Positions 7,131 through 59,600 of a DNA stretch of 64,000 nt are shown one piece after another. The stretch is taken from positions 64,241,205 to 64,305,204 of the forward strand of contig OX457038.1 of assembly GCA_949752735.1 (NCBI GenBank). The letters run 5' to 3'. The DNA is from Lumbricus terrestris (taxonomy: Eukaryota > Annelida > Clitellata > Crassiclitellata > Lumbricidae). The notes beneath the pieces were generated by a model, which saw only the letters and a program-made list of their open reading frames with translations, ran no database searches and was not told the DNA's origin. Position numbers and translations under genes: made by a program. Position 1 is the first letter of the stretch. Every line of letters starts with the position of its first letter.

Positions 7131-7826
7131 AGGCCTGTTTTTAAGACATTTTTAGAACTGCACAACCAGTGGCGTCTACCAATGGAAGGGTTGGGAGAAC
7201 GTTCTCCCACGGTTTCTGAATGTGGGGGGGTTTGACGTTTTTCCGGTGTAAATTGGGGGGGTTGGTGAATTTCTATTAAATAAAGGCCTGGAATACGAAA
7301 ATTATTATTTGTGCATCATTTATGTATCGAAAAACATTATTACCTTGGAGTAACGAACCCACGGTTCGCATAATGTCACTTATATTTGGTAGGGAGCAGG
7401 ACAACTCATAGACATTAGTGTCAGTCAGGTCCCTGGCATACAAGGGTGGAACACACCCATTCGGGATTGACCTCTTATCGCTAATCACGTTTACTGACGG
7501 AGCCAAGCCGAAGCCCCACCCTTGGCAGGTGATGAAGGCAACAAAATTAATGATTGCGACGGTCGCGCAGCAAAGAATCAAACGACCCGTTTGACACTTG
7601 CTGTGCACGTGTAGCCTACCCCAGTCTTCGGACAGTGGTCCCTTCTGTAAAAGTAGCCTAAGCCTAATGAAGCTAATAACAGATGTTTCGCATTAGATTC
7701 CCAGCCAGCATATCGCTGAAATGGATAAGAGCAGCTCTGATGTAAAGCAGAGTCTTTCCATGCAATATAGAGATGCAGCCATAAGTGCAGGAAGCTAGAT
7801 GGTAGTCATTATGCAATATACATGGT

Positions 7827-8034
7827 AGTAGTGGGTATAGTGAGATTACTACCTCAAGGGTATACTGAGAGTACTGCCTCAGCAATTAAAAAACCATTAA
7901 AAGACTGCCTCAGCAATTAAAAAGTCATTAGTCACGCCCATTAGTCACGCCCCCCAGTGAGCTAGTAATCCTAATTAATATTCATGTAAAATAGTCACGT
8001 GACTAATTAATATTCATGAATGCAGTGACGTCAT
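7827..8034 (+). repeat. Left terminal inverted repeat of the PolB element
   Basis: Pairs with 16079-16243. The first 63 bp are identical. After that the left arm carries an extra ~45 bp that includes a second copy of actgcctcagcaattaa. Further in, both arms share tcatgtaaaatagtcacgtg, the palindrome gtcacgtgac and atgaatgcagtgac. Confidence 0.9.
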
Positions 8035-8345
8035 ATTCGAGAACTTTCTGGACCATTCCAGAAGGACTATTGTTGTTTGTCCGTCTGTTTGTATGTCTGC
8101 CTGTCTGTCTACCTGTCTGTGTGTATACCTACGTGAGTAAGAGGTCGTTAATGATGTAGCTTCGGGTGATGGTTTTATTAGATGCGATAAGGATCTCTAC
8201 GGCGCCATAACACACATGAACTGACTGTCTGCATACCTAAGTGCTTAAGAGTTCATTAGTGACGTCATCGTTCTGGAACTTTCGATAATTAGCGTTCTAG
8301 AACATTCAGGTCTTTTCCAGAATTCCAAAAGATAGTTCCGCTGTA
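8020..8345. repeat. Left subterminal repeats with TGACGTCA motifs
   Basis: Two copies of the palindrome TGACGTCA (8026-8033 and 8260-8267) lie next to ttctggaac/ccattccagaag-type words and tgtctgcctgtctg runs. The same words occur, inverted, in the right subterminal region. Possible roles are promoter, transposition-protein or origin recognition; this is inference. Confidence 0.65.
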
Positions 8346-8531
8346 TGTAAAAGAAAGTAGATCCTCACACATTTCTTATATTGAATCAGCTCGTATGGAC
8401 ACAGATTAACATTATGGTGTGCTATGTATTAATGCGCCGCAGCTATTATAAAAATTCACCCTTTTCACACTGCTTCATTCGACAACGATATCGCAGAGGG
8501 CATTCTTCATCTCTTTACGAAGCTATCTGCT

Positions 8532-9343
8532 ATGGATCTGAAAATGAAGACCGAGAAACCTTGGAACGTTGCAAGATCTACAATGATTCCAAAAACAGTG
8601 AGTATTTTAATTTTGTTTTTGTGTATACAGAATAAAGCGTTTGTAAGATCTTGTGATGACACTTGAGAGCTTGTTTGCAGTAAGAATATGTAATGTTACT
8701 TGAGTACTTCTTCTTCTTCTTCTTCTTCGCAATCCATACACTCTGTGCTATAGCTAGAGATGAAACTTTATTTGTATCAGATTCTATTATATTGAAATTC
8801 TTGTTTTCTTTGGATTTGTAGACTGGCACTCATATGTTTAAAGAGTCCATTGGGAACAACCGATATCTAACTGCGAGCGTCTACAAGGACGAATTGATGG
8901 TGCACATTCGAGAATATGATGAGATGAACAACCAATCGTATCCAACGAAAAAGGGAGCATCATTCAACAAGTCAGCATGGGTGAGATTCCTCGGTCACTT
9001 CGATGAAATGGAGAGAAACGTTGATCTACTCAGAGCGAATCAGCCGGTTGACTATTATCAGCATGTGGGAGGCCGGTACTACGTCTCTATCAACCAAGCC
9101 TACAAGTGTGTGAACATTCGGCGCTATTTTCTCCCTCCAAACACCACTACGGAACGTCCAACTCGTAGCGGCATCGCTCTTCGATTGGCAGAATGGGACA
9201 ATCTTCTTCAGAAAATCCCCATCTTGCACGAACGTTTACCCGAACTGAAAAGCGCCACATCGTGCAATGGCGTCTTAGATCACTTGAATCAGTTGGACTA
9301 TTTGAATTGTAACATGTGTAATCCTTTCCAGACTAAATATTAG
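8532..9343 (+). CDS. Tandem PC4-like (p15/SUB1) single-stranded-DNA-binding protein
   Basis: Two coding exons, 8532-8597 and 8822-9343, joined in phase 0 (donor ACA|GTGAGT, acceptor TTTGTAG|ACT), give 195 residues. Two PC4-like units follow each other. The first spans about residues 35-92 (MVHIREY, then PTKKG and a conserved W). The second spans about 107-163 (CVNIRRYF, then PTRSGIAL and a W). Cellular PC4 has one such unit, dimerises and binds single-stranded DNA; a tandem protein could act as an intramolecular dimer. Lying beside a protein-primed polymerase, it may coat displaced strands during replication or act in transcription; both are inference. A C-terminal Cys pair (CNMC) is present. 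The intron holds a TTC microsatellite. A variant poly(A) signal, ATTAAA, lies near 9432. Confidence 0.78.
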
Positions 9344-10065
9344 CATTTACGCAAAGGGACCTTTCGAACATTACATTAGATTTTCAATAGTATACTTCTT
9401 TTTTGTTGTTGTCATTAATCTTTGGCTGTTGTATTAAATGTTAATTAAACCTTTTCTTCGTTGCATTTATTGAACTCTAGATAGCTGAGTTGAAGTTAAG
9501 TAAGAGTAAGAGTAAGAGTAAGAGTAAGCAAGGTATGGGCTTTAAGTCTAAACTGATGAGTTTAACTATTAGTAAGAAAAACGCAAATTCAACGGTTTGA
9601 TAACTTTTTCCAACACAAGAAAACTTAAGCAAAAATGATACAAGTAGCAGTAGTGTCTTTTTTCCAATATACAAGCAACAATGTTCTTTCCTTTATACAA
9701 TATTGTCAATGTCCTTTCCACTATACAATTAAAACATATTCATGTGTTATTGTTCTTTCCCACACACACAGCTAAAATATTAACTTTTTTCCCAACACAA
9801 GCAGAAATAATACAAGTAACATATGTGTCCTTTTTCCAATATACAAGCAACAATGTTCTTTCCATTATACAATTGTCAATGTCCATTCCAATATACAATT
9901 AAAACATATGTGGATGTCAATGTTCTTTCCAACACACAGCTAAAAATATAAACAAGTGGTAGTGTTCTTTCTCCAATCCACATAACCTTTTCCAGCATGA
10001 ATATCTCCAACGTATTATACAATATTTACAATTTGAATTTACAGTGAGTTTATGGATCAGAAGGA
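9344..10065. repeat. Tandem repeats between the convergent element genes
   Basis: This gap holds a 6-bp array (gtaaga, about 9498-9530) and then two to three diverged copies of a ~165-bp unit built from caatgttctttcc, ctatacaattaaaacatat and acacacagctaaaa (about 9660-9960). No coding potential. It probably contains both transcript ends. Confidence 0.65.
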
Positions 10066-13000
10066 CTAGCATTTAAGCGACACATGGCCGTAGGCAAGCG
10101 AAGCGCTATTATTTAACAGATATCTCTTGTCGTCGTACGGCGAAAGAGCGGATTTCGAAATTTCGGCGGTATGCAGTTGGTGTTTAACACTTCGTATCGT
10201 GTAAAATTTCGCAGTGGTCGGCGCTTCGTCGAACAGACAGTTTGCATAATCTCGATGACGAATGTATTTGGACACGCACGACTTTTTCACACCTTTGGCC
10301 GTTTTCTTTTCGTAATCATTGGGAAGCAAAAGACTATACATTTTTGATCGTAAACCTACAAACTCCAAAGGTGGTTGCCCATTCGACTCATCTTTGAACT
10401 TGCCAATCACTTTCGCATTAGCTTTGCTATGCAGAAAGTGATCGGCGGGGTAGTCGGATGTGTCGTATTCGGTCATGTGATGACGCATGTCCAAATACAC
10501 ATCGTCGGTTCGAATATGATAGCACAAACTGTCTGTATCGGTAAATAATAACTTTGCTCTTTCACCGTACAACCTCTGCATATGCTCGTAGTGAAACCGA
10601 TACATATGCAGCTTGGAGATATCCAAAATACTCATGCCGACGTATATTGGCTTGTCCAGCATCACATCGGATTTTATCATTTGGATGATGGTAAGGTCTT
10701 CATTTATGATGCTGAATGTCTTGAACGTCGGCCGAGCTATGTAACGCTTCGCTTGCCTCTCGTTCGTGACTAATCGCACATCCAGATGATTACGATTATT
10801 CTGCATGGTCTTCCCATACACCGAATTGTTCATCAACTTGAACAGATCTTTCTCGAACGAGTTAGCGGCCATCTGTCGCTTAGCGGTGTTAAAATCAATA
10901 TATGGTTTCAACCATCGAGATTGGTCAAACTCTAGGATTCTGTGAATTTTGGTAAGTTTAAGACCCATTGCCACGTAGAACTGCAAATTTCTGTAATGTA
11001 GGATGTAATTTACCTTGGAATTTAAATTTGGGATCAATTTTTGAATTTTGTTATTGAATTTGATACCCAATTTGCCGGCCAATTCATTTGCATAAGGGGA
11101 AAGTATGTCTTTCGTTATCGCCATCTTTTCAGGAGCTAGCGGATAATCGTTATGTGGATTGTGCAGATGAGGCGGATATTCTATATCCACCTCGAGAATG
11201 TACCCCTTCAAATCGTCTTCATGTTTGGAACTCACATCGAAATTCTCGATTTCTTCGGGGTTCAGGAATCGGAATTTGCCGGTTGGTAATGGTTCGCTCA
11301 TGGCGAAGCCATACAGATTGTTGCAGTCCAAGTACATTATGTAACTTGTTTCTGCAGTGGCATCATATCCTTGAGCGAGATATGGGTTGTTGGCCTTGGC
11401 GTATCGATTTGTTATCATGCTCACCCCACCTCGCATTCCCTTCTCGACGAAAAGGAACTGATCTGGATCGACGATCAATTCCAGCGAGACATCGGTCATC
11501 TTGAGACATGCGTCGAAACTCAGACCTGGACTTGAAAAATAATGCAGCGGATCCAGCCGATAGAAATTCGAAGACATCTTACGAAATTCTTCGAATACAT
11601 CGGCCAGAAGCACTACATCAGTTTCCAAGTACAGGTCGTGATAGTCTTTCATCGAACGCATGCCAAATTTTGACCAGGTGTCTCGAGCGTGTGAATAATC
11701 GTCATCACTGATATGTTCATCCGTCAAACGACTGAAGAACTTGTCCTGCGGTGGCAAGCATGACTCGTACATTCTTTCCGCACAATCCATGTATTCATAT
11801 GGGTAAACTCCTTTCCGAAGCAACGGCTTGAATTGATCATCGTTCGGATGGAGTCTACGCATATGAACGAATTTGGAATTTCCGTCTTTTGTTAAATTTT
11901 TCACCAAGGTGTCAAGACTACAGTTGAGAAATTGGAGGGAATCCACGAAACGTAGGCCATCGATTTCAAACGCTAGATATTTCTCCATATTGGTGGCGAT
12001 AACGAAGACATCTTTCGAAGCGAAAAATCGGGACAGATGCTTGAGGATGATATGTGAATCATATCCCTTTAGGTTGTGAAATACAACAGGAATGAGATAG
12101 TTGTATTCGTTCTCCCCAACTTTCGACCTCTTGTATCTGTACTGTAGGTTACAGTTGTTACATAGCGCGGAAATGAATTGGCCGGTTACGTGGCAATGGT
12201 GTCTTACTTTGCTTTCTTTAGTAAGATTGGTGTCGCATGATGGGCAATTGGTACAATTTGCAAAGGCGGTCAATTGCAAGTCCGAAAGCGGTGTCATGGG
12301 TTCGTTCTTAGCCAGAATTTTGTTGATTCGCACTTGCTCCGATTTTAAATGTACAAAGAACGCACCGACGACATTGTCGCCACTGTACACATATGGTCGC
12401 TCGTTATTATAGCCGTCGATGGTCGAAACCGTTAAACAGCAAAATCCGCTTGGGGTGTGGGTGTCACAAAATTTGGTTGAGCTACCCGCATCGATATCAG
12501 TTTTGCTAAGGAAGGCCTCGAAGTCCGCGTATATTGTGAATGGAATCTGCATTTGGTTTTGTATGTTTGAAAATTTCAAAATGTTGTTTTCGGGTGAAGG
12601 GTAATGGACTTTCTGTACGCCATGTGTGCTACATTCCGGAACGTGGTTCCGCATACCCAATTCAGTCGTGAAGCAATGGAGACAGAAAGGGCAAGGGAAT
12701 ATTTGTCCGTTGTGTGAATTTCGCCCGGATAAAAGACGGGAAAGGCTTCGAATCAATATGTAATGTCGCCTTTCGCCTTCACTCAACAACAGTAAGTTTA
12801 CTGTATGTTTTCGATCTCGGTGTTCGGATGCGAATAAAGGTACGAATGTGTGGTCTTCGTTCGACCTGATGCAGATAACATTGATCGCGAAATCGGGATT
12901 CTTTGTTTCAAATAGTGGTATTTGACCAATCTCGATGGGAAATGCCAATCCTTCAATGGTTAAATCTTGTATGTATGGAGTGTATTTTGAAATGCGTTCT

Positions 13001-14963
13001 GCATTTTTCTTTACATGATGGGCATGCGCAAGAACACAGTAAACAAAACATTGATCGTCAGTGTTCTGAATATTTAGAGTAGCTTTCTTGTTTGATAACC
13101 ATTTAGGTGTGGGAATATACGAGGACCCCCCAATGGGATCGTATTCGGCCACATGAAGTGTGAGATTTTGTATTCGGTCGATAGACCAGCCAGACCCGTC
13201 GTTGGTGAAAGTGTCGGCCAACGACTCCAATCTTTCTATCGCATCCTCGATGTGTTGATGAGTTGCTGTATGATTCAAAAGAATTGTTGGATTTGATTTG
13301 AAGTAGGCTGTGGTTTTCCTGGTGCCACCTTCGGGGTCTTCTCGGTTGAACTGAAAGTCAGCTGCCAGATACCATTTGATAGGACTGAAATAAAATAAAG
13401 TTTCGAATATCATCGAATTGATGATTTAATTAATCCATTAATATAGGATTAAATATTGCTTTCTAACAGCGTTTAGGATTCGATTGTGAAAGAATGGCTT
13501 ACCCTTTTCCGGCTAGCCGTTGCTCCAAGGCGGACGAGATTCCATTTTCCAGGTTGTGAACGAGCATGCGTACATCTGAGGCGTTCGGATCGGTTGGTAA
13601 TTGTTCCTGCTCAAAGACGTTCCTCACGGATGTTCGAACACGATTGGATGGCGGTCTTATGCATGTGTTGCAAATTGTTGAATTGTTGTTGAAGAACTGA
13701 GATTGACGACGAAGTTGGCAGACGCTGCAGATTCTCCTATTTGTGCAGATTTCGCACAAACCGTTGTCGTTCAATCTCGTCTTTTTGTACGCAGAACAGT
13801 AGCGACAATATGTGTCTTTTTCTTAAAAAAGATACAAAAACATATCCGTTCAAATATCTAAAACTTAAAAATTTGGGGATAAATTATAAATCTAAAACCA
13901 TTCACATAAAATAAATTTGAAACCATTCACAAAGGATAATTTTGAAATAATAGAATAAATCTTTGGCATAAATTTCAACTTACTTTGAATCTTCGCCGAG
14001 GTTGATGGTTCGTCTTCTGTGCGTCTTTTCGTCGCTAAAAAATTTACCAATGTAATAATTTAACATCGAAACACTTGGAAAATAACGAAGAGTCGAAATT
14101 TGTATGAAATCTGAAAATAACGAAAACTGAAATTGGAACAGCCTAAAATAAATGAAACTGAATTCATAAACTTGTCAGAAAATTTAATTTCTATGAAAGG
14201 TTGTTCAAACAATAGTTAATGACATACCTAGATTCTTCGAATCTTGTCGCTGAAGTCTGAAATCAGAATCTCTAACGTCCATTCTACGAGTCCATCGACG
14301 ATCCAATTCGTCCATGGCACTCTGATATTCGGAATCTGATATATTTCCATCGATAACAGCTGAAATATCATACAAAACGAATATTTTATTCGAACATAAT
14401 ATCGAATTCACACAATCGCAGTTCAATTGTATGATAATTTGAAATTATTTACACATTTCCAAATTTTTATGTTGCTGTGTTTAAAGAATATAAAAAATTA
14501 TCTTTGTTTTACTATCCTAGATAATATTCTTGGAATTACTCACAGAATTTGTTTGTAGATGTAGCTCCTTCATCGGATGGCTCCATTTTCCGCTTCTTCA
14601 CTGTAAAGACAACAAGCATCGACTTTAGAATAATTGCAAGACTAAAAGACTAACAATGTAAAAAATATGTTGAAGAGAAGATATGTTGCACAATAATACA
14701 GAGCTCTACACACCTAGTGCTTTCCCACGCTCCAACCTCCGTGCCTCTTTTTCTTCATCTGAGTTTGTATGTTGCATCGGTTCTTCGTCTGACAACGTGA
14801 CATCCTGCATATCTATGAAAGATAAAATAGATTGTTTATAACAAATGCGAAAATAAACGTGTACATAGTTTTTACTTCTTCATGAGATATATATGAAATA
14901 TTTACAATTACTACAGAGTGGAAATGGAAGAAATATGACCAACATACCCTGTATGTGTCCCAT
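10066..14963 (-). CDS. polB: Protein-primed type B DNA polymerase, seven coding exons
   Basis: Coding exons 14963-14948, 14812-14714, 14600-14544, 14359-14228, 14034-13984, 13821-13503 and 13384-10066 have GT/AG ends and fully consistent phases, giving 1,330 residues. Order: acidic N-terminus, KKRK nuclear-localisation-like motif (exon 3), Cys-rich zinc-finger region (CRYC, CEIC, CSVC, CNTC; exon 6), a conserved domain with CF and HY residues, a C2H2-like finger (CPFCLHCF), ExoI YADFEA (about residue 510), a CTNC/HHCH/CNNC zinc insertion, ExoII FHNLKGYDSH, ExoIII YLETDVVLLAD, PolA YLDCNNLYG (about 909), PolB NNSVYG and PolC DTDS (about 1174). All exonuclease and polymerase acids are present, so it looks functional. 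Such enzymes copy linear DNA from a terminal protein. The last exon alone is open for over 1,100 codons. Start chosen as the first ATG giving phase continuity; it leaves a 5-residue first exon and is the least certain part. Confidence 0.88.
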
Positions 14964-15440
14964 ATTCACTGATTCTTGATGCTCGACGATTGATGCATTG
15001 CGCCGGTCACGCTGCGTGGTTTCTGGTGTCGTTGACCCGATGTTCTGCGCAAACTCCGATATTCAGCGAGTATACGCTCGCACCCTTACTCTAAACTTCT
15101 ATGTGTTCCAAATTTTATCCTTATATTTCCAATACGTTTATTAGATGCGCCTTGCGTAGAAAGGACTGTCTGTCGCTCTGCCAGTGTAGTTCCTGCATAA
15201 TCGAGGAGGGTGTCGTAAATGTTTCCTCTTTTTAAGATGCAATGCTGAATAAATTTTAAGAAACGACGCTGCTGATTGTATTGATTTTTTTGCTTATGTC
15301 AAGTGTGAATAACAGGTTATGTAGCTCATATATAGAATGAAGATTGAACTATGTGAGTGAAGCTGGGCAATTCTTAGTACTTTTTAAAATTAATGCGAGA
15401 CGAGGACGGTTGGGTTGATAGTGATCTCACACGCATAATG
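14964..15440. promoter_or_regulatory. Probable 5' region of the polymerase gene
   Basis: No coding sequence is seen upstream of the first coding exon. The short reading frame at about 15000-14970 ends before the chosen start. The region is likely leader and promoter, but no core promoter motif is convincing. Confidence 0.35.
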
Positions 15441-16078
15441 AGAGTCACATACACAAAGGACAATATGCAAATAGGCAAATCGTTATAGCATTTAGGTATG
15501 CACACAGCCAGGCACAAACACGCACACAGAGAGACAGCCATACACGTGCTCGAATGTTCCAGGTCCTTCTAGCAAATACTGACGTCACCTCATGAATATT
15601 AATTAGGCATGCCCTTAAAGGCTGATTAGTGTGTTAGGTATATACACACGTATACACACAGACACACACAAACAGGCACACATACAGACAGACATACAAA
15701 AGCTCGAATGTTCCAGCGCCTTCTAGCAAATGACGTCACATCATGAATATTAATAAGCAAAGGACAATAGGAATTCTCTTTGGAACTCGAATTTTCTAGA
15801 ATGATGCCGGCATTAACGTCCTCTTAATCACCTAGGTATACACACAGACAGGCAGACGTACAGGCAGGCGGACAAAGAGCCGGACAAACAACAATAGCTC
15901 TTCTAGAATGGTCCACAAAGTTCCAGAAGATGACGTCACTGCATACATGAATAGTAATGAGCACAATGCATGCTAATGGCACATACACACACAGACAGGC
16001 AGACAGACAGATAAACAGACATACACACATACATACACACATACAAACACACATACGGCTTCTAGAACGTACTCCAAT
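15440..16078. repeat. Right subterminal repeats of the PolB element
   Basis: Units of about 150-200 bp each combine a CA-rich cagacaggcagac run, an ttctag(a/c) word, a TGACGTCA palindrome (15580, 15731, 15931; degenerate TGATGTCA at 16081) and catgaatattaat. They mirror the two left units in reverse orientation, so the inverted-repeat architecture extends well beyond the TIR proper. Confidence 0.75.
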
Positions 16079-16243
16079 TATGATGTCACTGCATTCATGA
16101 ATATTAATTAGTCACGTGACTATTTTACATGAATATTAATTAGAATTACTAGCTCAGTGGTGGGGGAGCTAATTGGTTTCTTAATTGCTGAGGCAGTACT
16201 CTCAGTATACCCTTGAGGTAGTAATCTCACTATACCCACTACT
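16079..16243 (-). repeat. Right terminal inverted repeat of the PolB element
   Basis: Reverse complement of the left TIR. The outermost 63 bp are identical, and the inner part shares the gtcacgtgac palindrome and catgaatattaattag. Confidence 0.9.
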
Positions 16244-16780
16244 CATGTAGGTCTACCATAGACAACCGAATTTGACTGTTTCTGTGTTATAAGTTTTTTC
16301 TTATTTCGCGAAGAGTTGCATCGACATCAGCAGGAGTTGTTGTCTGCCTACAGTCCCTACACAGAGAGCTTCTGTGGAGAATTCGAATTATTAGCTTTCA
16401 ACTTCTAAGCGCATGGACGGAGATTTAAAGGGGTGGCGGAGATGCCTGTATCGCCCCAATGTTTCAGAAATATTTCATAAATATCATTATAATTTACTAC
16501 AGTGTTATTCATTGAGCTTATTTATCTATAATGAAAATTCGTCTAAGATGGCAACTTAAAAGCCAAATTTAAAAAAAATTAAGCATTGAGAGCGACATTT
16601 ATTGAAGTCTTGAACCACATCTCTGAGCACTGAGATCATGACAGCTTGAAATGCTACGTACGGCAGCAATGTGCAAATCCAAAAATTGTATGCAATTGGG
16701 AGACGACACTCTAAGGTCTCAAACCATGCCTAGGCTAGTATCAGCTAGTATGGAAAAATGAGTACCGGTAATTTTATTAA

Positions 16781-17100
16781 GACGACACCTTAAAATGCTG
16801 CCATTGCATTGTGGAAATTCAAAAAGTTTCTAATGGGCCACTGAAAAAGTACAGCTATTTTGTTAAGACGGCACCTTAAAATGCTGCCATTGCAATGTGC
16901 AAATTTAAAAAGTTTCCAATGGGTCACTGAAAAAGTACAGCTATATTGTTAAGACGACACCTTAAAATGCTGCCATTGCATTGTGGAAATTCAAAAAGTT
17001 TCTAATGGGCCACTGAAAAAGTACAGCTATTTTGTTAAGACGACACCTTAAAATGCTGCCATTGCAATGTACAAATTCAAAAAGTTTCTGATGGGGAGGG
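16781..17100. repeat. Four 86-bp tandem repeats inside the hAT element
   Basis: The word gacgacacct or gacggcacct recurs at 16781, 16867, 16953 and 17039, exactly 86 bp apart. Each unit contains aaaatgctgccattgca and a aaaaagtacagctat word. Related modules lie inverted in the hAT at 20463-20550 and in the element at 54052-55020. Confidence 0.88.
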
Positions 17101-24616: not shown

Positions 24617-27600
24617 TCACGAGATGTACCAGTTCCATTTGTCGGAATCGTCCTCATCTGACCCTGGGTCATCCTTCTTCGTATCAGCCCCACCCCCTGC
24701 ACTTCCCCAAAAACCTGTGCCCAGATAGGTTGCAGATTTCTGAGGCTGTGATTCAAGCTTTTTCCAGATTTTCCTACAAAAGTGCAGAAATAAAATTTAA
24801 ATCTGGATTTCTTCTGCATAACATAATGAGTAGCACTGTGCTGATATGCCTTGTAAAAATAAGTATGTAAATAGAACCTTAGTAGGTCCACATTCTTCTG
24901 TAGTTGGACGGTATAACCTCAATGCTGTTTGTCTTTCAAGGGAGTTTATCTGGAGGGTTTTCTTCACCACTGCAGCCTGTTTTAATGGGTGCCACATAAT
25001 ATTTAGGTCTTCACCGTGTATGAACTATGAACCAAATAGTAAACTGAATATGCAAACTGGCTTCCTCCTGCATAAAATGTGTCTTATTGTAACACTCTGC
25101 CCAAGAACTGATTGTACCGGTACACATGCCTCCCTTGGATTCTTGAAGAAATCAAATAGCGAGTAGACCTATTTATCCTTGGTGGACTGGCCATTCTGCC
25201 CTTCCATGCATGGAAGTGCATGGCAGCCCATCGGATGGAAAGGAATAAATTATATGTCCGTACGTACTGGTCTATCGCACCGGGATTGCTTCTGAAAGGC
25301 TTAGCTGAGAGAAGCACTTTATAAATGGTCATATATACGATACAATACAATACATACATGTAAATTCATCCATATATTCAAACTCCAAAAGCATGGAGAC
25401 CCTTGCACTACTGAGATGACATGACCCCCAAAATGACAACATTGAAACCCTTGCACTTGTAAGCAATGACTGAAAAACTTATGTAAGAGAATTTCCTTAT
25501 GCTAAACCCATGGCAGTAATAAGCATGAAATGCTCGTAATTTCTAATTTCTTAGCCTTGGCTTGTGAAAGCCGGTGACCAGACCTCTTCCTCTCCTCACC
25601 TTCTGATCTTCACACCGACAAAGCATGGTTAGTATATTAATTTTTGTAGAGTTTAAACAGGAAATCATTAATCACGTGAAGACTTACTTTGCATCGCTTT
25701 CTGTAGTGTCCGCTGTCTCAATTGCCTCTCGTAAGTCTCCTGTCAGTTCTGAAATGCTGCGCTCGTAATACTCCTTCTGTGATGTCATGCGCTGAACCTC
25801 CACCTAAAGTTAAAGTGCATCTAGACTAAAACCATGCGTAAGCAGTAAGACAACCTGCTGTATATAAACGACAATGGAACTCTGCAATGCAATGTAAATC
25901 TACATTTTCAGTGCATACAAATGCTTCATCCTTGAAACCAGCTGATGCAGCAGTGCATTATCAAGTTTACACAAGCCAAGACGTTTTGGCAGCTGTGGTG
26001 TTAGGTCAGATGCTAGTCTAAAGAGATTGTGCTGTAAAGTTACAGGATATAATTATGCAAACATTTGGAAAATGATATAGTGTAAACAGAAAGACAATAC
26101 AGATATTTTTCTTTTCTTGTGCGGTGTTCAAGGTTGCGATGTATCAACCTGTAAGCTAATAACCAGTAGATTGGTATGTTTGTGTGTACATATAATTAAT
26201 TAATTAAATTATTTATTCACACAATAGTCAGGCAGCTGGCAATAAATCGAGTCCACGTGAGGCAGCATGTCTGGGCAGTTTCGATGCTGTGGAGGTTATG
26301 TAAACATAACTAGTGTAAACAGACTTGGCATTGTTTCTGCTGTTTCTATCATGGGATTCCAGATATGCCAAAGAAAACTGCTTTGTGAGGTGCCTACAAG
26401 TCACAATGGAATTTCTGCAAATACGTAGAACAATAGCAACTAATAGAAAACAATGGTTCATACGTCATTTTCTTTGATGCAGTGCCTTAGATAGTTGCAG
26501 ACGGTCGTTGGAACACATTCTTTGCGAATCTTGACGCGGAGTTGTTTCGTTAAGTCTAGAACGTTGCAGATGGCACCGTTGAGTTGCTGCACCTGCTCAG
26601 AAGGTTCCAGCTGTTCTGACCGTACAACAGTTGGCCTTGATATCTCTGCAAATAACAAAAAGATAAAAAACGTACACCTTTAAAATTTTTATTTACTGAT
26701 TATTCATCTAAAGCAGGAGTGTCAAAGAGCTGGCCCGTGGGCCATTTCTGGCCCGCCAACGATTTTTTCTGGCTCACGGAGCCTTCCCTAAAGATTACAA
26801 AATTAGAGGATAAAAGTTCAATTTTTTTTATATTACAGTCAGTGCCAAATACATGGAGGTTTTTCTTACTGATGTCACTTTTGCTCAGACGCACAGCTCT
26901 GTGTATACTGTGTATCTATGGTTTCTGGTTTATAGTCTGTTAACAAAATTATGAAAGTTACGAAGTCTTATAATATTTAAATTGTTGTCAAAATTTAATA
27001 AGAAGCAAAAAGCGGTCAATGAATCAAGATCTTTTCGCGATATTTGGATAAGATCACTACCCAATAATTTGCTCAGGAGCTTCGACACCATGGCCCGCCA
27101 CTTGTTGAAAGATGTTCACACTGGCCCGCCACTAAAAAAGGTCTGACAACCCTGATCTAAAGAACTGATGGTGCAATACTTGCACTTACCCCTACAATCC
27201 CACATTGAACTGTTCCACCGGAGAAGGCCTCAACGACACTATTAAGATGAACCTTTTACATTTATTGGATAACCACATTTCACAGTATTTAAAAAGTATT
27301 TCTAATAAATGACGTGAAGACCAAACCATGTGAGGACCAAACCATGTGAGAATCAAACCATGTGAGGACCAAACCATGTGAGAATCAAACCATGTGAGGA
27401 CCAAACCATGTGAGAATCAAACCATGTGAGGACCAAACCATGTGAGAATCAAACCATGTGAGGACCAAACCATGTGAGGACCAAACCACGTGAGAACCAA
27501 ACCACGTGAGAACCAAACCATGTGAAGGCCAAACCATGTGAGGACCAAACCATGTGAAGACCAAACCATGTGAGGACCAAACCATGTGAGGATCAAATCA

Positions 27601-28354
27601 TGTGATGACCAAACCACGTGAGAACCAAACCATGTGAGGTCAAACCATGTGAAGACCAAACCATGTGAGGACCAAATCATATGAGGACTAAACCATGTGA
27701 GGACCAAACCATGTGAGGACCAAATCATATGAGGACCAAACCATGTGAGGACCAAACCATGTGAGGACCAAACCATGTGAGGACCAAACCATGTGAGGAC
27801 CAAACCATGAGAGGACCAAACCATGAGAGGACCAAACCATGTGAGGACCAAACCATGTGAGGACCAAACCATGTGAGGACCAAACCATGTGAGGACCAAA
27901 CCATGTGAGGACCAAACCATGTGAGGACCAAACCATGTGAGGACCAAACCATGTGAGGACCAAACCATGTGAGGACCAAACCATGCAAGACCAAATCAAG
28001 TGAGGATCATCATACCTGGCTGTTGCAGACTGGCCAATTCTTTTTCTCGTCTCAGTTCAGCTCGTATCCTAAACAGAAATCAGGAACAGAAGAACTTTTA
28101 AAAAGCATGAACATTGAACACATGTCATACATGCATTAAATCAAATATACAATTTACAGCATGTAATTAAAAATATATATTCATTCATTCACTCTGAGAA
28201 TTTTTATAGCACCTCTGCACGATATCTACTCAGATGTACCTTTTAATATGATGCTAAATATAATTACAACGAATAATTACATCAGTTAGCTGAAACCGAA
28301 AGAGTCGCCCATGGCAGGCACATGCACACACATGGAACCAATCAACGGATGATT

Positions 28355-28392
<38 letters not shown>

Positions 28393-31300
28393 CATATAAT
28401 TATACATATAATATAGCTATATAAAATTGTATAATTATATAAAAAATATATATTAATTGATATATATATATATATCAATTAATATATATTTTTTATATAA
28501 TTATACAATTTTATATAGCTATATTATATGTATAATTAATTGATGACATTCGTTGCTGGAAAACAAGAGCTGAAGAGCTGAAATTCATCAAGACTTTCAA
28601 ACTAAAAAAGGTTTTATATATACAAAGATTCCTCATGCAATATTTAGAATTTCCAAAAGCCATCCATATTTCTTTTTGAGAATGTATTTGCTCTCAGATT
28701 CAAGAAACCTGCTTTTAATATAAGTTCGCAACATGGAACTGTCCCAGTATAAAGTTTGTAAGGTTATAGTTAAATATCACCTTAGCCACTTTGGGATATA
28801 ATCAGTGATATATGGCTTATCTGAGTTCCCCTTCAATTAATTGTAGTAAAATGAGGATACAATGAGGGTCTTGGAGACCCCTATGTTTTGTCGAGTAAAT
28901 GCGACAAGTAGTCATCATAAGATAAGATAAATACTACAATAATGGAAATGCCAACAATGTAAGGCATGACAAAAGTACCATGATCAGGTAAGGTAGATGC
29001 TACGATAAGGCAAAACAAATTGAGGCAGACATAAAGGTATGGTAACACATGGTAAAGTTAGCTGAAACCGAAAGAGTCGCCCATGGCAGCTAACACATGG
29101 CTCGACTGGTTCCGCTCCTACCTCAGGGGTCGCCAACAGTCAGTGCTCTTCGACGGGGTTCTTTCATCCGTCCGCTCCCTCGTCTGTGGAGTCCCTCAGG
29201 GCTCCGTGCTCGGTCCGCTGCTTTTCCTACTCTACACGGCCGACGTGGGAGAGCTTGCCACGAGTCTCGGCCTGTCATCACACTTCTATGCCGACGACAC
29301 GCAGCTCTACACGTCAGGACCTCCATCAACGGCTGTACACCAGCGGCAGCGAATGGAGCTTGGTATTGAGCGGATCGCAGAGTGGATGAGATCGAACAGA
29401 CTGCGGCTCAACCCCGAGAAGACAGACTTTATGTGGTGCGCAACCAGTAGACGGTGCCTTCATCTTGACACCGGTGCGCTCAGCGTCTGCGGGGCTTCGA
29501 TCACGCCTTCGACCTCGGTGCGTGATCTGGGCGTTGTGCTGGAGTCTGACTTGTCCATGAGGCGCCATGTGGCTAGGACGGTCAGCAGCTGTTTTCGCCA
29601 GCTCCGTCTCATCAGGAGCTGTATCAAGTCCTTGCCTTTCGAGGCCGCTAGAGCAGCCGTCACTGCTTTCGTCATCTCTCAAGTGGACCGCTGTAACAGT
29701 CTGCTGGCCGGAGCGCCTGCGTGTCTTTTGGACGGACTTCAGTCGGTGCTCAATGCCGCGGCCAAGCTCATTTGTAATAGGAGAAAATATGATCATGTTA
29801 CACCACTCCTACGCGACGTCTTGCATTGGCTGCCTGTCCCGTTCCGAATTGAGTTCAAGCTCAGTTTGCTGGTCTACAAATCGCTTCATGGGACTGCGCC
29901 TGAATACATCCGCGACTACTGTTCCGAGACCCATTCCTCCGCTTCCGGGCTGCGACTCAGGTCGCTTGGGAAGACCGACCTCCGTGTACGGAGGATGAAG
30001 ACACGTTTCGGCGACCGCGCATTCTCGGTTGCTGGTCCCAGATGCTGGAACAGTCTTCCATCGGACATTAGATTGGCCGCCTCAGTGGACTCTTTCAAAA
30101 CAAAGCTTAAAACTTATCTGTTTGCTAAGGCGTATCCCGCAGTTGGCCGTTTGTGAGGCGCCCTTGTAGCGGTATGGCCGCGTTACGGCGCCATATAAAT
30201 TGTCGTTATTATTATTATCGTTATTATTAAAGTAAGATAATCAAACACCTCTTGTTCCTTTCAAGTGCGTCTATGGCTTGCTGTTCAAGTTCTTCCAGCG
30301 TCTGAGCCTCTTTCTGGATTGCAGCTGCATTGCCAGCATGCATATCTGTCAACTGGGTCAGCTGGTCTTGGAGAACTCTATGTTTTGTCACATGACCATC
30401 GAGTAAATGCGATAGGTAGTCATCATATGCTCTCTGAAATGCGAAAAAGTCACATTCATGTATGGTAAACTTTAAAATAAGGTAACTGCTTAGGCACGGC
30501 AACTGCGAATGATACTGTGAGATGTACTAAGTTAAGGTCCGATCAGGTATAGTAAGGTAAACACTAAGAAAAGGAAAATTAAATGCAGTCCCATTAGGCA
30601 CCAATTTCTGCGCAAATTCGCTCAATGTATGACTGCACTGGTTCTCACTACTGTTTGCATATAGCACATTAAAAATGAAATAATCGTGTATATTATGTTT
30701 TAGCGTAAACATCTAAATATTTACATACTACCTTGCTGAGCGCTACCAGCCTCTCACAAATTCTGAAGCATGACAGATAACCATGATGTAAGACAAGTCA
30801 AACCTTAACTAACGTAACACACAATTACAAACCTTAATCTTTCCTAGAAGACCTCCAAAAGTCTTGGAACCACGGTTGATTTGGTCGAAAGCTGCGCTAT
30901 GTGCTTCAAGACGATGAAATCCAAGTCCAAAGCCACTAGACTCGAGACGATCGAGTTCCTGAATGAAAAGCAGCTCTTTGCATGAAGTCGCCACAACATT
31001 TATATAGCACCTCTCAAATGAAAATACCACTGTGACCTAATGCAATCACTGCTGGATCCTAAGTACACTTGCAGCTGCTGTTTGAAGTACCAGTACTTAG
31101 CTGTTTTTGATGTCAGGGAAGCTCGCGCTGCGGCTACTACCTCGGAATAATTTGCCTGCTTCTACCAGTTGCTCAAGACCTTTCTCTTTAGCCGTGGCTG
31201 AGCTGGGAGCGATTCTGAGTAGGCTTCCTGGAGGGGTGCTATATGAATTTTTGGAATGACATTCATTTCATTCATTGAACGAAAATAAATATGGCATTTC

Positions 31301-56600: not shown

Positions 56601-59600
56601 GTGTTGTACTCTATACAATCATATTGCATTGTTGGCATGTACTGTATTGTGATGTGCTGCATCCTATTGCATTGCCTTTGTTGTATTGTACTGCTATGCT
56701 ATTGTACAGTTTATTTTGTTGAAACTACATTACTACAAGTGTATTGTAGTCTACAGTAAAAGGATACACTGCTCTGTGAGTCATGGCATACAATATTGCA
56801 TCTGATTGTATTGCATTGTTTGTTTTATTGTCCTGTTTTCATTACACCGTATTACCAGGTATATTGTTTTGTATTGAGTGCCACTGATATTTTGTTTTTC
56901 ATTGTAAATTATGTCAGATTACAAATGCTTTTACAAAATTAAAATAGAAAGGTATTGTTTGTCAATCAATCCATTGTAATCATCATTGTTTTTGCATTCA
57001 GACCTTGGAGAGACATGTGCAGAACTTGTCCAAGAACCACAAGCACCAGCTGACGTCAGAACGAACGAAAGAACAAGAACTAGAACGACAGATTGAGAAG
57101 CTTCAGGAGAGGTACAACAAATTGGAAATCGACATGAAGGTAAACTACATTGCGTTATACATCACGATAACATACATTCCATTACATTATGATTGGCTAA
57201 TTACTTCATATTCCATACGTTGTGCTATATGTCATGCATTACATTTCATACTAAGCAACACGTTACATTACATTTCATACTAAGCAATACGTTACCTATG
57301 TTGGATTAAATGTTATTGTTGTGCCACAATTGTTATGTTGTCTGACATTGCACTCCATAACAAGTATTGCATTATATTACGTTATATTGGACTTCTTGTT
57401 ATTGCATGAAATTATACCGCATTGCAATTTGCATTACAACCGCTTAGCACCACTTTGCCAATTATACGTATTATAATGTGCTGCATTGCATTACATTACA
57501 GTGCATTAAAGTTGAGAAAGAAATTCGGGTCCTGCCGCCCCTAGGCAGAGCAGTCACAGGCCCCTAAAATATCTTATGGCTTAATGAGAAACAAAATCTT
57601 CAGAAAAAAATAGAGGTGATAAAATTGCAGGTACGACCTACAATTTTATATTTACAAAACATGCTTTTATTCAGTTGTTAACTTGAAGTGTAACTGATCA
57701 TAGTTAATTTTTTCTATAACACTATATTTTTAAAAAGGCATAAGTATACACTTTTCTCAGGGTGAGAATTGCCGGGGGGGTTGGGGGGTTTCGACCCCCC
57801 CAGTCTTTCTTAGAGCCCCATGTTAAAGTATGTTTTTACACCCCAATTCCAAGTGGATAATGGTCCAACCCCCCCAGTTATTTTTCCACAATTCTCACAC
57901 TGACTTTTCTATTCATAGCTACCTAGCCCAAGCCCATAAAAGTCGCCAGGTCCATGGACATTTACCCATCCCTTCCGGAGGCCATGCTATCACAATACAA
58001 CGTTGCACCTGCTATCACAATACAACGTTGCACCTGCTATCACAATACAATGTTGCACCTGCTATCACAATACAACGTTGCACCTGCTATCACAATACAA
58101 CATTGCACCTGCTATCACAATACAACGTTGCACCTGCTATCACAATACAACATTGCACCTGCTATCACAATACAATGTTGCACCTTCTATCACAATGCAA
58201 CGTTGCACCTGCTATCACAATACAATGTTGCACCTGCTATCACAATACAACATTGCACCTGCTATCACAATACAACATTGCACCTGCTATCACAATACAA
58301 TGTTGCACCTTCTATCACAATGCAACGTTGCACCTGCTATCACAATACAATGTTGCACCTGCTATCACAATACAACATTGCACCTGCTATCACAATACAA
58401 CATTGCACTGCTATCAAATACAACGTTGCACCTGCTATCGCAATACAACGTTGCACCTGCTATCACAATACACAACGTTGCACATGCTATCACAATACAA
58501 CATTGCACCTGCTATCACAATGCAACGTTGCACCTGCTATCACAATACAACGTTGCACCTGCTATCACAATACAACATTGCACCTGCTATCACAATACAA
58601 CATTGCACCTGCTATCACAATACAACATTGCACCTGCTATCACAATGCAACGTTGCACCTGCTATCGCAATACAACATTACACCTGCTATCACAATACAA
58701 CATTACACCTGCTATCACAATACAACGTTGCACCTGCTATCACAATACAACGTTGCACCTGCTATCACAATACAACGTTGCACCTGCTATCACAATACAA
58801 CATTACACCTGCTATCACAATACAACATTACACCTGCTATCACAATACAACGTTGCACCTGCTATCACAATACAACGTTGCACCTGCTATCACAATACAA
58901 CATTACACCTGCTATCACAATACAACGTTGCACCTGCTATCACAATACAACATTACACCTGCTATCACAATACAACATTGCACCTGCTATCACAATACAA
59001 CGTTGCACCGGTGACTACAATGAACACATCCTTTTTGTCTTGCAGGAGAAAGACAAAGAGCGAACGCTTCAGAACATCTATTCTCTGCGGTCGATGAGAC
59101 CCCCGCATCGTCTCGACAGTTCGCTGCAATCGTCCTCACAGACGGACCTCGTTCGGACGGTGAAGACTCGACCAGAAAGGGGGAGGGTCGACCGACGAAG
59201 GGTCGGAGGAAGTGGAGATCTGACGGCAAGAACGGACGACTACGGTCCGAAGAAGTCGGAACGCAGATACGAAGTAGGTTCGATCAAATGTCGTCTGGAG
59301 TTAGGAGGGTAGTGTAGAGGATGTATGGTAAGGGAGGGGGAGGTGGTAAGGGGCGGAAAGGATGGGAGGTAAAATAGGGCTGGAATCAAAGGATATCAGG
59401 GAGGTGAGGTAGGGTATGGATGGATCATGAGAGAGAAAGAAGAAAAATAGGATATGGTATAGGAAGGTTGGGAGAGTAGGTGGGAGTGGTAAGGTAAGCT
59501 ATGATATAAGAGGGTAACAGACTAACAGAGGGTAACGAGGAAGGTAAGGTTGGAAAAGAAGGATAAAGCGGAATGGGGAAGCAGGTAATGTAATATGTAG

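Follow-up and report, generated by a model that had tools for sequence, protein, structure and literature searches.

Polintons (Mavericks) are regarded as self-synthesising, with polymerase and integrase on one element of about 15-20 kb whose terminal inverted repeats (TIRs) start with AG and which is flanked by a 6-bp target-site duplication. According to the consulted part of PMC11071296, Adintoviridae are defined by a family B DNA polymerase (PolB) and a hexon encoded together with a chromodomain integrase, and adintovirus-related genomes without recognisable PolB and integrase are reported there as well. For Bidnaviridae, the excerpt consulted of PMC4061559 describes a Polinton-derived PolB and a genome spread over two segments with conserved ends. 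Here, we describe an 8,417-bp element of the annelid Lumbricus terrestris, located at positions 7827-16243 of a 64,000-nucleotide stretch of contig OX457038.1; this whole stretch is called the window below. The element carries an intact PolB gene under purifying selection, and its ends recur elsewhere in the genome on both sides of integrase and capsid genes, for which searches of the window gave no match. We consider it somewhat probable that a Polinton (Maverick) lineage has split into such end-matched replication and integration/capsid elements, which would complement each other in trans.

The original prediction, made from the letters alone, had described a TIR-bounded PolB element of 8.4 kb with tips identical over 63 bp. 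Both statements agree with the sequence, in which the outermost 63 bases are identical and the arms match at 99% over 70 nt. The TIRs begin with AG as in Polintons, and the start base is the same in seven other copies that were printed. Inward of the tips, the inverted arms become imperfect (95% over 86 nt and 86% over 151 nt). The element had also been described as lacking integrase, ATPase, protease and capsid; in line with this, the window has no tblastn match at 1e-3 to any of 19 such proteins, which come from this genome and two viral contigs and did recover their own loci. A Pfam scan of three frames of the element detected neither a parvovirus-type capsid nor a superfamily 3 helicase, and the element has no further stop-to-stop frame of at least 150 aa beyond these three.

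The PolB open frame (10066-13413, minus strand, 1115 aa) is intact. In a protein search, 7963 of the best 8000 scored proteins match it; among the 120 matches listed, the closest relative is 80% identical and the named relatives, from cnidarians and molluscs, reach 48-51%. PHROGs returned a DNA polymerase (4.7e-15), and Pfam only a weak endonuclease VII match under its cut-off. The window PolB as query had no match in IMG/VR, and two Polinton-like viruses at 38% identity were retrieved with a PolB profile. The residues of the exonuclease and polymerase motifs are kept in an alignment with 21 homologues, and by its sequence we classify the protein as a protein-primed family B polymerase of the kind that characterises Polintons. 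The Cys and His of vOTU type are retained too, which are conserved in Polintons according to the consulted part of PMC11071308. The gene probably has an additional 5' exon at about 13503-13821 (minus strand), joined via a 118-bp intron: all 29 other copies examined have the Cys-rich upstream frame, at ratios of non-synonymous to synonymous substitution rates (dN/dS) of 0.09-0.33. With dN/dS mostly from 0.5 to 2, another candidate exon of 79 codons (14208-14444) was rejected. Of the original claim of two intact genes, the open frames of both PolB and its neighbour PC4 were confirmed, and the extent of PolB requires this probable addition.

The neighbouring gene encodes a PC4-domain protein of 169 aa. 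Its AlphaFold2 model (mean pLDDT 89) consists of two successive strand-rich halves with a helix closing each, and, judging by how strands and helices follow one another in the model, we read the protein as two tandem PC4-like folds; presumably, it binds single-stranded DNA. The family is narrow, with 26 proteins recovered by a single query and 56 by a profile and no relatives in IMG/VR or a plasmid collection. The single match in prokaryote genomes (L003) spans 26 residues and was taken as chance.

Searches of the 1.056-Gb genome all score the best-ranked candidates of longer lists. With the whole PolB (best 41 of 1635 candidates), identities were 78-100% and 33 of the 41 places are stop-free. 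With a 111-residue piece (best 150 of 973), 73 places lie at 76-100% and, after an identity gap, the remaining 77 at 62-65%. The former group, referred to as the clade below, speaks against the possibility, raised in the original prediction, of a unique deleted copy. The median dN/dS of PolB is 0.107 (300 pairs from 25 stop-free copies, after leaving out 5 copies with stops from the 30 loci fetched). These values suggest a multi-copy family under purifying selection rather than a chance deletion.

The ends of the window element pair around PolB in the window, at C6 (11,982 bp) and at C18 (12,587 bp) and, at only 80-89% identity, at C2 (15,168 bp), so that the TIRs do co-occur with this PolB elsewhere, as the original prediction had asked. 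The pattern that it had named as the mark of a family, most copies being about 8 kb long with the same two genes, was not seen: the measured PolB elements range from 8.4 to 15.2 kb, the window element being shorter than Polintons, and only 4 of 30 loci (L012, L013, L034 and L035) have PC4 at 1.5 kb or less from PolB, with traces of 31-34 residues at three further ones. In other copies the PolB block is about 90% or about 83% identical at the DNA level and the sequence outside it is different. Tips of the AGTAGT type occur beside PolB in 11 of 30 copies, extra stretches included, by a pattern match whose chance level was not assessed. A PolB element without PC4 at C10 measures 10.4 kb and has a 238-bp inverted stretch at 99%; it is flanked on both sides by TGTGAT, a perfect duplication if the right tip is allowed one extra AGT. 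The chimeric C5 element described below has TATATA flanks, but within a TA repeat. For the PolB copy at C2:20891556 the right end did not turn up in the stretch read, which extends about as far as for C10, and at C15:8114051 no inverted pair was found in the stretch read.

Of the genes missing from the window element, those for integrase, capsid and protease were located between ends like its own, which the original prediction had overlooked. The left 274 bp as query gave 43 matches (from 40 scored of 363 candidates), and the ten best comprise two PolB elements (the window and C6) and eight other places, at which the first 231 bp are 96-99% identical. Six of these eight were fetched, and in all six a protease (Peptidase_C5, Pfam 1.2e-5) and then the C-terminal part of a capsid protein follow inward of the end, which is the protease-side end. 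The capsid assignment is to a double-jelly-roll protein by a weak match (0.001) under the Pfam cut-off; this part is 98.9-100% identical across the six loci, which are 97-99.9% identical to one another, and for both capsid part and protease dN/dS is well below 1. The C5 locus additionally has two paralogous genes, a gene for a small basic protein and an integrase piece that comprises the C-terminal chromodomain (Chromo 2.3e-9); by their position we take the paralogous genes, which are without a Pfam family, as minor capsid proteins.

The best 150 of 847 candidates for the integrase chromodomain piece lie mostly within open frames of 358-376 aa. Using 40 of the 43 left-type matches and the best 69 of the 150 integrase places, we found that in seven copies the C-terminal piece starts 4733-4758 bp from the shared tip; in six more it starts 4663-4673 bp from a partial match opening at base 90 of the end, and the integrase places at C8 and C2 have different distances. 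A search with the right 284 bp (best 40 of 1028 candidates scored) recovered this sequence at the opposite end of these elements, with 100% identity at C4:30890413 and C4:10319591. Pairing was based on all 40 right-type matches and on 19 of 43 left-type, 14 of 150 integrase and 5 of 73 PolB places, namely those seen near such ends; as these input lists are partial, the pairs are a lower bound, and the lists provided no counterpart for 27 of the 40 right-type matches. At least nine elements have a left-type and a right-type end with integrase/capsid genes in between, at lengths of 9,386, 9,711, 9,876, 9,909, 9,946, 9,955, 10,225, 10,321 and 11,807 bp. Compared to the window, their left ends are 96-99% identical in seven, 92% (partial) in one and 82% in one, and their right ends 84-100%. 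An integrase was scored in eight of them, in uniform orientation, with a frame of 369-372 aa in seven; in the ninth (C4:8856111-8865821), the reading covered just capsid and protease. Genes for capsid and adenovirus-type protease are present in each of the five elements that were read. A size of about 8.0 kb assumed for the partner elements was wrong, given the 9.4-11.8 kb from paired ends. A 6.6-kb element at C5 was rejected as a typical partner and is not among the nine because it is a chimera with another end type. Integrases found with a viral query were likewise set aside, as they come from a different Polinton lineage, which has a PLA2-like gene, integrase and ATPase.

When the 73 clade PolBs were compared with 150 partner-type and 129 other scored integrase places, no pair within 20 kb was seen, with 0.4 pairs expected by chance for each integrase list. 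Among the 77 other PolBs, two are near an integrase, at 9.5 and 14.4 kb. The count of separated genes is incomplete, since only best-scoring lists were compared, and the scarcity of PolB-integrase pairs even for the other lineage means that many true neighbours would escape such lists.

Both subterminal regions of the window element are rich in sites resembling heat-shock elements (HSE). Allowing one mismatch or less, there are 8 in 7827-8350 versus 0.15 expected from shuffles and 6 in 15441-16243 versus 0.10, and the density across the whole window, element included, is 0.75 per kb. The motif TGACGTCA occurs twice in the left and three times in the right subterminal region, at 0.01 expected. 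At the six capsid loci, each protease-side end contains three HSE-like sites, and none was found in PolB copies with other ends or in the left ends at C5 and C1. By their sequence, these motifs may be putative regulatory sites of the heat-shock type.

Since the polymerase and a protein of single-strand-binding type are encoded here and the integrase and shell genes elsewhere between the same ends, the two kinds of elements seemingly form complementary halves. The window element, as the replication half, would supply the protein-primed polymerase and the tandem-PC4 protein, and the other half the chromodomain-type integrase, the capsid proteins and the adenovirus-type protease. PolB would recognise the shared tips of either half and prime on them by protein, the PC4 protein would coat the displaced strand, and the integrase would insert linear copies of either half, generating a 6-bp duplication. 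On this reading, the halves would depend on each other. The original prediction had left the choice between mobilisation in trans and integration by another route; the former is favoured, with the same-ended integrase/capsid elements as candidate helper, and the latter is unnecessary. A stricter version, which we consider somewhat less likely than not, is a bipartite Polinton with permanent replication (PolB and tandem PC4) and integration/capsid segments of about 8-10 kb each, with matching ends, mutually obligate, complementing in trans, possibly packaged separately and having heat-shock-type motifs in the subterminal repeats of both. Among the papers listed in literature searches, we found no report of a split Polinton, by which we do not claim its absence from print.

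Several observations weigh against a split lineage. The capsid and protease content was read in five of the nine paired elements, and the capsid frame is interrupted at L010; one of the nine is without a scored integrase, and the frame at C8 has only 190 aa. At two unpaired right-type ends (C11:4569153 and C2:54588019), an integrase lies 5.8-6.1 kb away in the opposite orientation. The 3.8-4.8 kb from the right-type tip to the integrase start in the integrase/capsid elements are outside the sequence read, so that a divergent PolB is possible there. A packaging ATPase of the partner lineage was not located, the best 139 of 872 candidates being 72-100% like that of the other lineage. Most clade PolB copies have no PC4 nearby, many bear other ends, and all genome searches cover just the best-scoring subset of candidates. 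The target-site duplication of the window copy is imperfect, with four of six positions matching (CATGGT/CATGTA).

It is somewhat unlikely, in our estimate, that the two kinds of elements arose from one full-length ancestor by complementary deletions, became abundant by chance and are now independent. A single ancestor would be expected to leave the match seen at both ends, and chimeras do occur, as at C5:20743568-20750198 with its other end type, truncated integrase and capsid genes; yet in the comparison of 73 PolBs with 279 integrases, no clade PolB occurred together with an integrase, and dN/dS well below 1 for PolB, capsid part and protease also speaks against this origin. Unrelated families could also have swapped ends through recombination or conversion, in which case shared ends need not mean shared machinery. 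The PolB block of about 90% DNA identity between different ends in other copies, the several end types in several combinations and the two right-type ends facing an oppositely oriented integrase all agree with such an exchange, which we nevertheless regard as unlikely, because nine integrase/capsid elements pair both ends alike, the integrase has the same orientation in all eight that have one and two right ends are 100% identical over 284 bp.

Alternatively, the integrase/capsid elements could be complete Polintons with a divergent PolB of their own, and the window element a derivative that kept its PolB and uses the integrase of this helper. The 3.8-4.8 kb mentioned above, end included, offer just enough room for a 3.4-kb PolB, and the spacings of 9.5 and 14.4 kb in 2 of 77 cases come from the other Polinton lineage. 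But a packaging ATPase would need space too, none of the 150 best PolB places (62-100%) is within 20 kb of the 150 partner-type integrases, and a redundant PolB is not expected to hold a dN/dS of about 0.1; we judge this arrangement quite unlikely. Very improbable is an autonomous PolB-only family that integrates without integrase: other PolB groups indeed show no integrase or capsid gene in the stretches read, but the TIR-bounded insertion at C10 with its probable 6-bp duplication is the trace expected of an RVE-type integrase, and integrase elements bearing the ends of the window element exist.

A split lineage compares with the described systems as follows. With Polintons the window element shares the protein-primed PolB with its vOTU-like domain, the AG-starting TIRs and perhaps, going by the C10 copy if one extra AGT is allowed, the 6-bp duplication; unlike in Polintons, only two genes are contained in 8.4 kb and integrase and capsid module reside on separate same-ended elements. 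By integrase, capsid module and length the window element thus falls outside the Polintons, yet it would function like the replication half of one. Adintoviridae also have an OTU-bearing PolB, and the partner elements resemble them in chromodomain integrase, capsid protein and adenovirus-type protease, but in the window element, which keeps the OTU-type Cys and His, no hexon or integrase was found. Like Bidnaviridae, the proposed system has a Polinton-derived PolB and a genome divided in two with conserved ends; those, however, are single-stranded DNA viruses with a parvovirus-type capsid and helicase, whereas here both halves are integrated and carry Polinton-type genes. As in non-autonomous DNA transposons, an integrating enzyme is missing and the ends are common with elements having one, but the window element has its own intact PolB under purifying selection.

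Further element types were observed in the genome. A third type, 5.9-8.4 kb long, is bounded on either side by an end sequence of its own (92-99%; Table 1); in its C1 copy, the first 3 kb show repeats and no clear gene. Its subterminal piece is also found about 3 kb from PolBs of the 62-65% group (C8:14770508 and C2:49932223) and, at four places, 3.08 kb upstream of partner-type integrases; a similar split may exist in other PolB groups. The chimera at C5:20743568-20750198 (L059, L011; 6.6 kb) combines a third-type end with an end of the integrase/capsid type and a truncated integrase. At C4:12569442-12578832, 9.4 kb are enclosed by the right-type end of the window element at both ends, at 100% over 284 bp. 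The loci L049-L058 and L061 belong to the other Polinton lineage, with PLA2-like gene, chromodomain integrase and packaging ATPase, the latter at no fewer than 139 places. In the window itself, an 86-bp tandem repeat of 3.8 copies (16771-17095) lies just beyond the right end of the element, the long open frames at 57827-59312 and 27417-27995 appear to be tandem repeat only, and a 364-aa reverse-transcriptase-like open frame (29062-30156) is LINE-like by eye.

Table 1 Features of the PolB element (window positions) and copies of the third element type (positions in the genome).
Feature	Position	Strand	Remarks
Possible left target-site duplication	7821..7826		CATGGT; right counterpart 16244-16249 CATGTA, 4/6 match
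Left TIR tip	7827..7896	+	opens AGTAGTGGG; 70 nt, 99% complementary to 16174-16243
Left 231 bp	7827..8057	+	96-99% to one end of 8 other places, then divergence
Left subterminal region	7997..8310		HSE-like and TGACGTCA motifs
PC4-domain protein, 169 aa	8834..9343	+	Pfam PC4 7.8e-18
Direct repeat pairs between PC4 gene and PolB	9622..9938		repeat analysis
PolB main exon, protein-primed	10066..13384	-	vOTU-like Cys/His, exonuclease and polymerase motifs
Candidate GT-AG intron, 118 bp	13385..13502	-	prediction; 151 bp is an alternative
Candidate upstream PolB exon, Cys-rich, ~107 codons	13503..13821	-	5' limit is that of the open frame
Right subterminal repeats	15496..16143		motif types as on left
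Right 284 bp	15960..16243	-	84-100% to opposite end of nine integrase/capsid elements; two at 100%
Right TIR tip	16174..16243	-	ends CCCACTACT; 70 nt, pairs with 7827-7896
Third element type copies	C1:6303314-6309570, C2:17274636-17281005, C11:34358136-34364028, C16:152502-160828, C4:30119620-30127973

If true, the split would represent a natural two-component system in which polymerase and integrase are located on separate, end-matched elements. How labour comes to be divided and DNA genomes segmented, as has been proposed for bidnaviruses, could then be tested directly, together with the question of which sequences PolB and integrase recognise.

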